This document shows, in pieces, positions 1,214 through 37,184 of a DNA stretch of 42,262 bases. The DNA is from an uncultured Elusimicrobia bacterium. Lineage in GTDB: Bacteria > Elusimicrobiota > Elusimicrobia > UBA1565 > UBA9628. The translations under genes and the position numbers were made by a program. The stretch is from contig CAIKVT010000010.1 of assembly GCA_903830945.1 (NCBI GenBank), positions 1-42,262 on the forward strand, written 5' to 3'. Under the pieces are notes generated by a model that made no database searches, had not been told where the DNA came from, and saw nothing but the letters and a program-made list of their open reading frames with translations. The number at the start of each line of letters is the position of its first letter. The first letter of the stretch is position 1.

Positions 1214-2692
1214 ATGATTAAATCGCAAGGCGCTCCCATATCATTCCTCGGCAAGTTCCTGGTCCTTAAAGGCGCGGTCCGCGAGCTCTGGATCATCTTC
1301 GGCGCCAAGGTCCTGGCCATCGTGGCCTACGGTATCATGAACTCCACCTTGGTGCTCTGGCTCTCCTCGGACCTGGGCTACTCGGACACCCGGGCTGGCT
1401 TCATCGTCACGGTGTGGTCCACGGCCATGACCCTTTTCACCGTCTTGGTTGGCTCTTTGGTGGATGCCATCGGCCTGCGCAAGGCTTTCCTGCTGGGATT
1501 CGTGGTCTGCATCTGCTCGCGCGCCACCATGACCTTCCTGCCCGCCCGGCATCTGGTCCTCCTGCTGGGCCTGCTGCCGTTGGCTCTGGGCGAGGCGCTC
1601 ATGACTCCGGTGATGGTGGCCGCGGTGCGGCGCTACTCCACCACGGCCCAGCGCTCCGTCTCCTTCTCCATCTTCTACGCCATGATGAACGTGGGCTTCC
1701 TGATCGGCAGCTACATCTTTGATTACGTCCGCAAGGGACTGGGCGAATACGGCCGCTACACGGTGCCCGTTCTGGGAGTGCACCTGAGCACCTACCGGAC
1801 GCTCTTCCTGGTCAGCTTCCTGATGACGATCCCCAACCTCATCATCATGTATTTCGGGCTGCGCGACGGAGTGGAGGTCACGGACGAGGGCGTCAAAATC
1901 ACGCCGGAGCAGCCCAAGTATCCGGGGGAAGGCACGCTCAAGGCTTTGCGCCTCATGATCCGCGATACCTTGCGCGACACGGTGCGCATATTCTCCGGGC
2001 TCTGGAAGCAGCCCACCTTCTATCAGTTCCTGGCCTTCATCTCCTTGGTGGTGGCCGTGCGCCTGGTCCTGCTGCACATGTACTACACCTATCCCAAGTT
2101 CGGCATTCGCGAACTCGGCGCGGGCGCCCCCATAGGCCGATTGTGGGCGCTCAACTCCATCGTGGTCATCATCCTGGTGCCTATCGTTGGAGCGCTGACC
2201 CAGCGCATATCGGCCTACCGCATGGTGCTCTTCGGCACGGCGCTTACCGCAAGCTCAGTTTTTCTCATGGCCATGCCGCCCATCTGGTGGCAGCCTTTTG
2301 CTGACGGCCTGCCCGGACACCTCATCGCGCAGACCTGGCTGGGCGTTCCGGGCCCGGTGAACCCGTATTATGTGATGATATTCGTCTATGTTGTCGTCTA
2401 TTCGGTGGGCGAGGTGTTCTGGACCCCGCGGCTCTACGAGTACACGGCCGCCATCGCGCCCAAGGGCCAGGAAGCCTCCTACATGTCGCTTTCCTTCCTG
2501 CCATTCTTTTTGGCCAAGCTTCTGGCCGGCTCGCTCTCCGGCATACTGCTGACCCGTTATTGCCCGGCCGTGGGGCCCCGGCATTCCGAGACCATGTGGC
2601 TGATCATCGCGCTCATGGCCATGATCACGCCCATCGGATTGGTCGTGCTGCGCCGTTTCATCCAGGTCCAGGAAGCGGGCCGCGATGCGTAG
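1214..2692 (+). CDS. Major facilitator superfamily transporter
   Basis: The protein is about 492 residues with some twelve hydrophobic segments. After the first hairpin comes a loop of the MFS signature type (GSLVDAIGLRKAFLLGF), and a long cytoplasmic loop (about residues 205-255, rich in K, E and R) separates the two six-helix halves. It should be a proton-coupled secondary transporter of the inner membrane. The overall layout recalls peptide (POT/PTR-like) carriers, but I see no motif that fixes the substrate. ATG 1214 is used; an in-frame TTG at 1190 is equally open, and neither has a good Shine-Dalgarno. It abuts nth directly (stop 2690-2692, ATG 2693), so the two are co-transcribed. Confidence 0.8.
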   Translation: MIKSQGAPISFLGKFLVLKGAVRELWIIFGAKVLAIVAYGIMNSTLVLWLSSDLGYSDTRAGFIVTVWSTAMTLFTVLVGSLVDAIGLRKAFLLGFVVCICSRATMTFLPARHLVLLLGLLPLALGEALMTPVMVAAVRRYSTTAQRSVSFSIFYAMMNVGFLIGSYIFDYVRKGLGEYGRYTVPVLGVHLSTYRTLFLVSFLMTIPNLIIMYFGLRDGVEVTDEGVKITPEQPKYPGEGTLKALRLMIRDTLRDTVRIFSGLWKQPTFYQFLAFISLVVAVRLVLLHMYYTYPKFGIRELGAGAPIGRLWALNSIVVIILVPIVGALTQRISAYRMVLFGTALTASSVFLMAMPPIWWQPFADGLPGHLIAQTWLGVPGPVNPYYVMIFVYVVVYSVGEVFWTPRLYEYTAAIAPKGQEASYMSLSFLPFFLAKLLAGSLSGILLTRYCPAVGPRHSETMWLIIALMAMITPIGLVVLRRFIQVQEAGRDA

Positions 2693-3328
2693 ATGATGGA
2701 GCCGGTCGAGCGCATGCCTGCCATCATCAAGGGCCTGCGCAAGCTCTACCCCGACGCGCATTGCGAGCTGGACCACGAAACCCCTTTGGAGCTTCTGGTG
2801 GCGACCATCCTCTCCGCTCAGTGCACGGATAAGCGCGTCAACGTGGTGACCAAGGCGCTCTTCCGACGGTACCGCGCGGCTCAGGACTACGCCAAGGCCG
2901 ACCTGGACGAGCTCGAAGGTCTCATTCGCTCCACGGGCTTCTTCCGCTCCAAGGCGAAGTCCATCCAGGAGGCGGCGAAGGTCCTGGTCGCCAAGCACGG
3001 CGGCAAGGTGCCGGAGACCATGGATGAGCTGCTGCAGCTGCGCGGCGTGGCGCGCAAGACGGCCAACGTGATCATGAACACGGCCTACGGGCAGGCCTGC
3101 GGCATCGTGGTGGACACGCATATGAAGCGGCTGGCTTTCCGGATGGGACTGACGGACGAGACCGAACCCGTGGCCGTGGAGAAGGACCTTATGGCGCTTG
3201 TCCCTAAGAAGGATTGGATATTCTTCAGCCAGGGCATGGTCTGGCACGGCCGCCGGGTGTGCTTCGCGCGCAAGCCGGATTGTCCGGGCTGCGCTTTGAA
3301 TAAGGTCTGCCCCAAACGGGACGTCTGA
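2693..3328 (+). CDS. nth: Endonuclease III (DNA glycosylase/AP lyase)
   Basis: This 211-residue protein is a full-length match to Nth, which removes oxidised pyrimidines in base excision repair and cuts at the abasic site. The helix-hairpin-helix segment is LRGVARKTANVI, with the catalytic lysine at K122, and the catalytic aspartate is D141 in VVDTHMKR. The C-terminal [4Fe-4S] cluster loop has the standard spacing C-x6-C-x2-C-x5-C (CFARKPDCPGCALNKVC). The early LSAQCTDKRVN segment is also typical. It begins immediately after the MFS stop codon and is followed 10 bases later by the permease gene. Confidence 0.96.
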   Translation: MMEPVERMPAIIKGLRKLYPDAHCELDHETPLELLVATILSAQCTDKRVNVVTKALFRRYRAAQDYAKADLDELEGLIRSTGFFRSKAKSIQEAAKVLVAKHGGKVPETMDELLQLRGVARKTANVIMNTAYGQACGIVVDTHMKRLAFRMGLTDETEPVAVEKDLMALVPKKDWIFFSQGMVWHGRRVCFARKPDCPGCALNKVCPKRDV

Positions 3329-3338
3329 AGGAGAACTC

Positions 3339-4646
3339 ATGTCGACTAAACCGCTTTACATGCCGGAAGACCGCATTCCTTTGGTTCGTTTGGTCCCGAT
3401 GGGCCTTCAGCACGTGGTGGCGATGTTTGGAGCCATGGTGCTGGCGCCCATCATCATGGGATTTAACCCGCAGGTGGCGCTGTTTTTCTCGGGCATCGGG
3501 ACGCTGATCTTCGTTTTCGTCACACGCTTGAAGGTGCCGAGTTATTTAGGTTCTTCCTTCGCTTTCATCGGGCCTGTATTGGCCGTCACAGGAGGCCGGG
3601 CGGAGAACATCCCGTTCGCGCTCTGCGGCATCGCCGCCGCGGCGATCCTTTACGGCTTGGCGGCCGTCGTGACCATGAAGTGGGGCTCGGGTTGGGTGGA
3701 CCGGCTGATGCCGCCGGTCGTGACGGGCACGGTGGTGGCCATTATCGGTTTGAACTTGGCTTCTTCGGCTGTGGCCAACTCTTTGAACGACAGCTTCGCT
3801 ATCCGCGGCATGGATGACGTGGCGCGCCTGTCCATCGCGGCCGTGACCTTTTTGACCGCGGCTTTGGTCTCGGTGTATCTGAAGGGCTTCATCCGGATGC
3901 TGCCCATCCTGACGGGGGTCTTGGTGGGCTATGGCATGGCCGCATCCATGGGCCGGCTCGACCCCGACGCTCTTGCCGCTATCCATAACGCCTCCTGGAT
4001 CGGCCTGCCGCCTTTTCAGACTCCGGCTTGGAGTTGGAATGCGGTCTTGGTCATCGCGCCGATCTTCGTGGTGCTGGTGGCTGAGAATAAGGGGCATATC
4101 GCGGCCATTTCGACGTGCATCAATCGGGATTTAAGCCCGCATCTGGGGCGTGCTTATCTGGGCGATGCTTTGGCGAGCTTCGTATCGGCCATGGGCGGGG
4201 GGACTCCGCAGACGACTTATGCGGAGAATATGGGCGTGATGGCGATCACGCGTGTGTTCAGCGTGTATAACTTCATCATGGCGGCTTGTATCGCGATTGC
4301 CTTAGGCGTGAGCCCGAAGTTCGGCGCGGTGATCCTGTCGATACCGGCTCCGGTGCTGGGCGGGGTGACCTTGGTGCTCTACGGTCTGATCACGATCATG
4401 GGCGCGAAGATCTGGGTGGACGCGAAGGTTGATTTTTGCCTGCAGAAGAACCTGATCGTGGCGGGTTCCTCGATCATCGTGGCGACGGGGCTGGGCATCA
4501 AGGGCTTCTCCGTGGGCGGCCTCAACATCGCGGGCATCGCCTTCGGGACAATGCTGGCCTTGGCCCTCAACTGGCTCATGTCCTGGGGCGATCCGACTGT
4601 GGAGTGCACGCCTTGCGAGCACGCTGCGGGAGTCAAGGAGTCCTAG
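3339..4646 (+). CDS. uraA: Uracil/xanthine permease (NCS2 family, UraA-like)
   Basis: The 435-residue polytopic membrane protein belongs to the nucleobase:cation symporter 2 family. It has the early LQHVVAMFGAMVLAP segment, PSYLGSSFAFIGP in the first repeat, and GGGTPQTTYAENMGV, which corresponds to the TTYGENIGV segment of UraA that lines the pyrimidine site. Uracil uptake is therefore more likely than purine uptake. The gene has a good ribosome-binding site (AAGGAG, 7 bases before ATG) and closes the MFS-nth-uraA operon. Only 10 bases separate it from the convergent downstream gene. Confidence 0.9.
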   Translation: MSTKPLYMPEDRIPLVRLVPMGLQHVVAMFGAMVLAPIIMGFNPQVALFFSGIGTLIFVFVTRLKVPSYLGSSFAFIGPVLAVTGGRAENIPFALCGIAAAAILYGLAAVVTMKWGSGWVDRLMPPVVTGTVVAIIGLNLASSAVANSLNDSFAIRGMDDVARLSIAAVTFLTAALVSVYLKGFIRMLPILTGVLVGYGMAASMGRLDPDALAAIHNASWIGLPPFQTPAWSWNAVLVIAPIFVVLVAENKGHIAAISTCINRDLSPHLGRAYLGDALASFVSAMGGGTPQTTYAENMGVMAITRVFSVYNFIMAACIAIALGVSPKFGAVILSIPAPVLGGVTLVLYGLITIMGAKIWVDAKVDFCLQKNLIVAGSSIIVATGLGIKGFSVGGLNIAGIAFGTMLALALNWLMSWGDPTVECTPCEHAAGVKES

Positions 4647-35743: not shown

Positions 35744-36547
35744 ATGCCCCAGTTCTTCCTGCCGCCGCAAGCTCTTAAGGATAAGGCGTTTCGTCTCACA
35801 GGTCCTGAGGCATACCACATCACCAAGGTCCTGCGTTACAAGGCGGGGCAGTCCTTGGTGCTCTTTGATGGGAAGGGTGGGCGCTTTGAGGCGGTCATCA
35901 AGGCCATCGAGCAAGACGGTTCGGTGTGCGGGTCTCTGACCGGGACCTTGCACGGCACGGAGCATCGCGCACCGGTCGATATCCGTCTCTATCAGGGTTT
36001 GCTCAAATCCAGCCATTGGGACTGGGTACTGGAGAAGGGCACTGAGCTGGGGGTGTCCTTTTTTATCCCGGTGACCACGCCGCGCACCGTGGTCCTGCTG
36101 CATGAAGCCGAGCGGGTCAAGGCCAAGGCCGAGCGCTGGGGCCGGGTCGTGATGGCCGCGGCCAAGCAGTGCGGGCGGGCTGACCTTCCGGCGGTGAAGG
36201 AGCCGGTCCAGTTCCGCGACGCGATCAGGGCCGCCACTGAAAAGCCGGAAGACGGGCCGGCGAAAAGTCCCAAGGCCCTGACGCTCCTGGCGTGGGAGGG
36301 ACTTAACGGAGCCACGGCCTGCGAGACCGTCCGCTTGAACTTGAGGGAGGCTGATCAGGGCCGGGGTTCGGAGAAGATGACGGTGAACCTTTTCATCGGG
36401 CCGGAGGGGGGATTCACCGAGGAAGAGGTGGAGCTGGCTGAGAGTCTGGGCGCGACCATTTTCGGCTTGGGCCCGCGGACTTTACGGGCGGAGACCGCCG
36501 CCCTGGCGGCCGTCGCTTTGATCCAGTACGAGTTCGGCAGCCTCTGA
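35744..36547 (+). CDS. rsmE: 16S rRNA (uracil-1498-N3)-methyltransferase RsmE
   Basis: The 267-residue protein has the N-terminal PUA-like part (FRLTGPEAYHITKVLRYKAGQ in part) and the C-terminal SPOUT methyltransferase domain with the trefoil-knot motifs FIGPEGGFTEEEVELAES, FGLGPRTLRAETA and a final ALIQYEF. It methylates U1498 of 16S rRNA. It follows dnaJ after 10 bases and is the last gene of the heat-shock operon, a common arrangement. ATG 35744 is preferred; the longer frame upstream is dnaJ shadow. Confidence 0.93.
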   Translation: MPQFFLPPQALKDKAFRLTGPEAYHITKVLRYKAGQSLVLFDGKGGRFEAVIKAIEQDGSVCGSLTGTLHGTEHRAPVDIRLYQGLLKSSHWDWVLEKGTELGVSFFIPVTTPRTVVLLHEAERVKAKAERWGRVVMAAAKQCGRADLPAVKEPVQFRDAIRAATEKPEDGPAKSPKALTLLAWEGLNGATACETVRLNLREADQGRGSEKMTVNLFIGPEGGFTEEEVELAESLGATIFGLGPRTLRAETAALAAVALIQYEFGSL

Positions 36548-36558
36548 CACCGCATTGG

Positions 36559-36580
36559 CGCGGGCATGCCTTCGCGTTCT
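36559..36580 (+). terminator. Candidate terminator hairpin downstream of rsmE, split from its T tract by the intron remnant
   Basis: CGCGGG (36559-36564) pairs with TTCGCG (36571-36576) including two G-U pairs, followed by TTCT (36577-36580). If the element 36581-36727 is removed, the tail becomes TTCTTTAG, a more typical terminator end. Group IIC introns are known to insert just after such hairpins. Confidence 0.5.
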
Positions 36581-36727
36581 GTGCGAAGTTCAGGCTGAAG
36601 GTCAACGATTGGAGGTGCCTGAACTTGCCGCGTAACCTCAACTTTTCAAACCGCCGGATGCGGGCCCGCATGTCCGGTGGTGTGGGAAGGGACGGCCGGA
36701 GCTAAACTCGGCCGCCCCTATCCCGAT
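36581..36727 (+). mobile_element. Miniature remnant of a group IIC intron (5' end, D5 and D6; no reverse transcriptase)
   Basis: The 147-base segment begins GTGCG, like the GUGYG 5' end of group II introns, and ends CCTATCCCGAT, like their 3' ends (final AY). Near the 3' end is a domain 5 hairpin (36650-36681) and a domain 6-like hairpin (about 36688-36720) with CGGCCG arms and an unpaired A region before the end. The CCGCC...GGTGGTGTG form is that of bacterial group IIC introns. Domains I-IV and the reverse transcriptase gene are missing. A perfect 10-base inverted repeat (AAGTTCAGGC 36586-36595 with GCCTGAACTT 36617-36626) lies in the 5' part. The exact 5' boundary is inference. Confidence 0.7.
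36650..36681 (+). ncRNA. Group II intron domain 5 hairpin
   Basis: A 9-base-pair lower stem (ACCGCCGGA with TCCGGTGGT, one G-U), a two-base bulge on the 3' side (TG), a 4-base-pair upper stem (TGCG with CGCA) and a four-base loop (GGCC) reproduce the fixed geometry of domain 5. The CGC in CCGCCGG sits where the catalytic triad lies; the CGC form is that of group IIC introns, with the G-U pair kept. The loop is not GNRA, which suggests decay. Confidence 0.78.
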
Positions 36728-36743
36728 TTAGTCTGACCGATGA

Positions 36744-37184
36744 CTACTTCGATGCCTCTTTTTTTGGGACGGCCGCATCGCCGGACCGCCTATTTCTCCT
36801 GCGATTGTGCCCGGCGTTACGTCTAATCGCCGCCTTGCAGGCGTCCGATAGGGATGCGCGGTCCTTGGCAAGACACTTGAGCAGGCCGGTGCCGATGTCC
36901 ATGGACTCGCACTTGTCCGCCTTGATCTCCGCCGCGCAATCCTGTTTGACGGCATCGTTGAGGGCCTGGCGTTCCTGCACGACGGCCTTGCACTCTGCAT
37001 CCTGGATCCTGTCGAATTTCGCGACGAGGCAAGCCATCGCTGTGTTGCCTTTCTCGCCCGCGCACAGCGTCTGCATGTCAGCCTTGCAGGCGCCGCCGCG
37101 CTTTTGGGCTCCGGGACCTTGGGCTTGGGCCATCACATTCAGAGCGACGCACAGCACCGCCGCCGTCAAGATGTTCTTATTCAT
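36744..37184 (-). CDS. Secreted protein with GLG1-like cysteine-rich repeats
   Basis: The 146-residue protein has a signal peptide (residues 1-21, ending VMAQA). Two Cys-rich repeats follow, each with four cysteines: C-KADMQTL-C, then C and C in the first (about 33-65), and CAAEIKADKC, KC and DAC in the second (about 82-115). This spacing resembles the GLG1/cysteine-rich FGF receptor repeat found in some secreted bacterial proteins. A Lys/Arg-rich tail follows. GGAGGG lies 7 bases before ATG 37184 and a promoter-like element upstream. Function is unknown. Confidence 0.78.
   Translation of the reverse strand: MNKNILTAAVLCVALNVMAQAQGPGAQKRGGACKADMQTLCAGEKGNTAMACLVAKFDRIQDAECKAVVQERQALNDAVKQDCAAEIKADKCESMDIGTGLLKCLAKDRASLSDACKAAIRRNAGHNRRRNRRSGDAAVPKKEASK

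Follow-up and report, generated by a model that had tools for sequence, protein, structure and literature searches.

A very probable 3' fragment of a group IIC intron downstream of rsmE in an Elusimicrobia genome

Positions 36558-36727 (about 170 bases) of the window, by which we mean the whole 42,262-nucleotide stretch of DNA analysed here, almost certainly represent a 3' fragment left by a formerly mobile group IIC intron, truncated at its 5' side and internally deleted. Each of its pieces is homologous to intact introns, the order of the pieces is directly visible, and neither an RT nor D1-D4 nor any other copy is detectable in the genome. A group IIC intron would have inserted downstream of rsmE, or would have come in already 5'-truncated. 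Its 5' part, comprising domains I to III, the beginning of domain IV and the N-terminal half of the reverse transcriptase (RT), would have been lost, as would two internal stretches of the RT gene, leaving three RT scraps, D5, D6 and the 3' end. The order of the truncation relative to the deletions can only be inferred. The original prediction of a group IIC remnant that keeps D5 and D6 but has no ribozyme body or RT left is borne out by a match to RF00029 and by a homologous intron at locus L042 with a GsI-IIC-like RT. The features are as follows.

35744..36547, + strand: rsmE, intact (267 aa), the upstream neighbour, outside the intron; 87% identical protein in the congener G002
36558..36576, + strand: RT-gene scrap 1, codons RGHAFA, which directly precede the YADD motif; left limit of what can be recognised as intron; compared with the L038 and L042 RT genes
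36577..36608, + strand: RT-gene scrap 2, codons FCAKFRLKVN(D), containing GTGCG; compared with the L038 and L041 RT genes
36609..36648, + strand: last RT codons, stop codon and linker to D5; aligned to LGVPQLAA-stop and the subsequent linker in L041 and L042
36649..36682, + strand: group II intron D5 and flanking bases, CGC triad, 13 pairs, 2-base bulge; RF00029, pairs present in 10 of 10 sequences
36683..36727, + strand: D6 and intron 3' end CCTATCCCGAT, with a bulged A; RF00029 to model position 77, pairing as in relatives

The two hairpins are the best preserved part of the segment. In a cmscan search of 36500-36800, RF00029 (group II catalytic intron D5/D6) matched 36649-36727 over its full length (model positions 1-77; 38.7 bits, E 2.1e-6), so that the covariance-model check proposed for D5/D6 came out positive. 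This score lies 1.3 bits below the RF00029 gathering score of 40, which is why a whole-window Rfam scan at the gathering threshold remained silent. D5 (~36650-36681) consists of a lower stem of 9 pairs, a 2-base bulge on the 3' side, an upper stem of 4 pairs and a 4-base loop; its triad position reads CGC, as is usual in group IIC, where the RF00029 consensus has AGC. D6 (~36683-36725) has CGGCCG arms and a bulged A where the branch point usually sits. The intron 3' end at 36717-36727 is the same as in L041, lines up in the alignment with the 3' ends of intact introns, and is one base longer than the 3' part of the extended IIC consensus (5' GUNYGCCNRGCAUGG, 3' CCUACYCGAU; PMC4028801). The D5 geometry, the triad, the D6 arms and the 3' end at 36727 were thus all placed correctly from the outset.

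The predicted fold of 36581-36727 (-69 kcal/mol) beats 200 of 200 shuffles (z -3.95). In an alignment of ten D5/D6 copies (that of the window and nine from related genomes), wherever a sequence has letters at both positions the pair is a standard one, and this holds for 29 of 29 pairs. The 13 pairs of D5 are kept in 10 of 10 sequences; being invariant, they add no covariation evidence, which comes from D6, where 16 of 16 pairs are kept and five have changed on both sides among the relatives. When partners were shifted by one base, pairing fell from 100% to at most 52%, a contrast that is in part expected, since the structure tested was taken from the window's own fold. The D6 of the window carries one G-U to A-U change, and its D5/D6 show no structural decay, with every pair holding. 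Such undecayed hairpins fit a recent loss but would equally fit hairpins retained for some use, and the observation is counted against the decay reading.

It is very unlikely, nonetheless, that D5/D6 persist because they serve as a functional structured RNA, for instance a hairpin that forms a 3' end or stabilises RNA between convergent genes. The fully intact pairs and the position of the site between rsmE and the convergent gene at 36744-37184 speak for such a role, but a recent remnant would show intact pairing too, and the surroundings argue in the other direction. There is no terminator-like site at 36400-36900, and the remnant is absent downstream of rsmE in every congener where rsmE was found. 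Also unsupported is the proposal that joining the flanks restores a terminator tail, for which a wrong boundary had been used. DNA similarity to the congeners ends at the rsmE stop codon or a few bases before it; beyond that point every genome differs, and no empty site downstream of rsmE is readable in the congeners. The left edge of the recognisable intron (~36558) lies about 10 bases past the rsmE stop, and nothing is left of the original 5' exon junction. The gene at 36744-37184 (- strand) encodes a small secreted-looking protein of 146 aa with several cysteines; it has only weak relatives in related genomes and is of no help in reading the flank.

Returning to the intron fragment, its part upstream of D5 consists of RT-gene scraps and not of a shortened domain I. 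The stretch CGCGGGCATGCCTTCGCG is the same as in the RT gene of L038 (18 bases) and one base off that of L042, and scrap 1 translates as RGHAFA, as in the relatives' RTs. Scrap 2 follows in the same order as in the relatives, with 92% identity to the L038 RT gene over 36584-36608 and 88% to that of L041 over 36583-36608. For the 62 bases at 36548-36609, none of 1000 dinucleotide shuffles matched the real chained score against any of the three RT genes; the score exceeds the shuffle maximum widely for L038 (62 vs 33) and narrowly for L041 (44 vs 41) and L042 (46 vs 45). The first deletion, between scraps 1 and 2, is in-frame and removed RYADD and some two dozen codons, including the YADD active site. 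The second, before the last RT codons, spans ~0.45 kb in L041 coordinates and broke the frame. The exact deletion junctions are unreadable, as the species has no intact parent copy. Neither RF02001 nor RF01998 (D1-D4) reaches its cut-off anywhere in the window.

These comparisons bear on the 5' boundary first assigned to the element. The GTGCG 147 bases upstream of the 3' end is indeed present at 36581; it falls within scrap 2, in the codons TGT GCG, and because RT-derived sequence flanks it (36559-36576 and 36584-36608) it is coding sequence of the lost RT and no intron end. On the + strand of the window GTGYG turns up 1.6 times per kb, and the first 14 letters of the IIC 5' consensus are absent from this strand at up to one mismatch and from 36500-36660 at up to three. 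A GTGCG upstream of D5 is insufficient to call an intron 5' end, and the 147-base unit cannot be upheld, as RT-derived sequence runs upstream of 36581 to ~36558. The window copy is a fragment of a group IIC intron and not an intact member, its IIC 5' part being lost.

The genome itself (3.24 Mb, 99.3% complete, 84 contigs, which leaves some room for a copy lost in an assembly gap) yielded no second copy of the element, no other D5, no group II RT and no match to RF02001 (D1-D4). Other pieces of a full-length intron gave only short matches at or near chance there (best E 0.02), so that the search for further copies or a full-length IIC intron in the same genome came back empty. It is therefore extremely unlikely that 36581-36727 is a non-autonomous 147-base miniature group IIC intron moved by a helper RT: the GTGCG at 36581 agrees with the short GUGYG consensus and D5, D6 and the 3' end are intact, but RT coding sequence around and upstream of 36581 strongly contradicts that boundary, the extended IIC 5' consensus is missing, there is one copy, with neither a helper RT nor D1-D4 found in the genome, and the loss of domain I leaves the element with no exon-binding sites.

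The assignment of the fragment to group IIC comes from its intact relatives. A complete copy of ~1833 bases (~1.83 kb) is found in a genome of the same genus (L042 of G004, positions 2621-4453), with the 5' end GTGTGCCCAGCATG, D1-D4 RNA (RF02001, RF01998), an RT, D5, D6 and the end CCTATGCCGAT. Its RT (452 aa; TIGR04416, 412 bits) has the GsI-IIC RT as the closest solved structure (E 2e-130), followed by other group II intron RTs, with LtrA far behind (E 6e-38). The intron also fits the extended IIC consensus of PMC4028801 closely, and the family is therefore group IIC. Read from the sequence, the L042 intron is preceded by a GC-rich hairpin; in the window copy the 5' exon junction is lost. 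The window's intact relatives share a class C-like RT and the IIC 5' end with introns of the GsI-IIC and Oceanobacillus iheyensis type. The window copy resembles these group IIC (class C) introns, presumably those of the O. iheyensis type as well, in the CGC triad of D5, in D6 and in a 3' end near CCUACYCGAU; unlike them, it has no domains I-III, has lost most of domain IV and has no usable RT gene.

Group II introns lacking domain I have no exon-binding sites, and those lacking an RT cannot retrohome. Since the remnant has no domain I (and hence no EBS sites) and no RT, it should be inert, able neither to splice nor to move. It is also ordinary, because truncation affects the majority of group II intron copies in bacteria, according to the survey in PMC4028801. 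Like the truncated copies described there, it is a 3' fragment whose 5' part and IEP are lost, and it differs from them not in kind but in having two internal deletions besides. We conclude that the remnant is a dead fossil of a common type rather than a new miniature element. Its own importance is slight: it records that group IIC introns once invaded an Elusimicrobia genome in which no intact intron can now be detected, whereas close relatives have kept copies.

These copies were traced by DNA search in 57 genomes (the genome itself and 56 relatives). A D5/D6 region 84-90% identical to that of the window occurs in three congeners (G002, G003 and G004) and in G030, which belongs to another genus of the family; more distant D5/D6 copies occur in one genome of another family. 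G030 has 14 D5/D6 matches, the majority of them at contig ends, a pattern to be expected when a multicopy element interrupts assembly. Counted by locus (L015, L021, L024 and L027-L037), G030 shows at least 14 3' ends of group II introns, most of them at or near contig ends and falling into two sequence types, ~86-88% and 85% identical to the window copy; they probably reflect a multicopy expansion. At L038 of G003 (~2200 to 1585, - strand), the letters themselves suggest an intron copy without its 5' half and with an internally deleted RT gene, joined upstream to a seemingly unrelated transposase-like frame. It appears to be another decayed copy of the same kind as the one in the window.

A D5 pattern scan of genome records returned at least 117 stretches from many phyla. 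Five loci (L129, L137, L156, L117 and L139; Gemmatimonadota, Binataceae and Acidobacteria) share the D5 core sequence and have little or no RT, and in them an IIC-type 5' consensus stands only 387-673 bases before D5. They are candidate ORF-less group IIC introns and offer a place to look for true non-autonomous forms.
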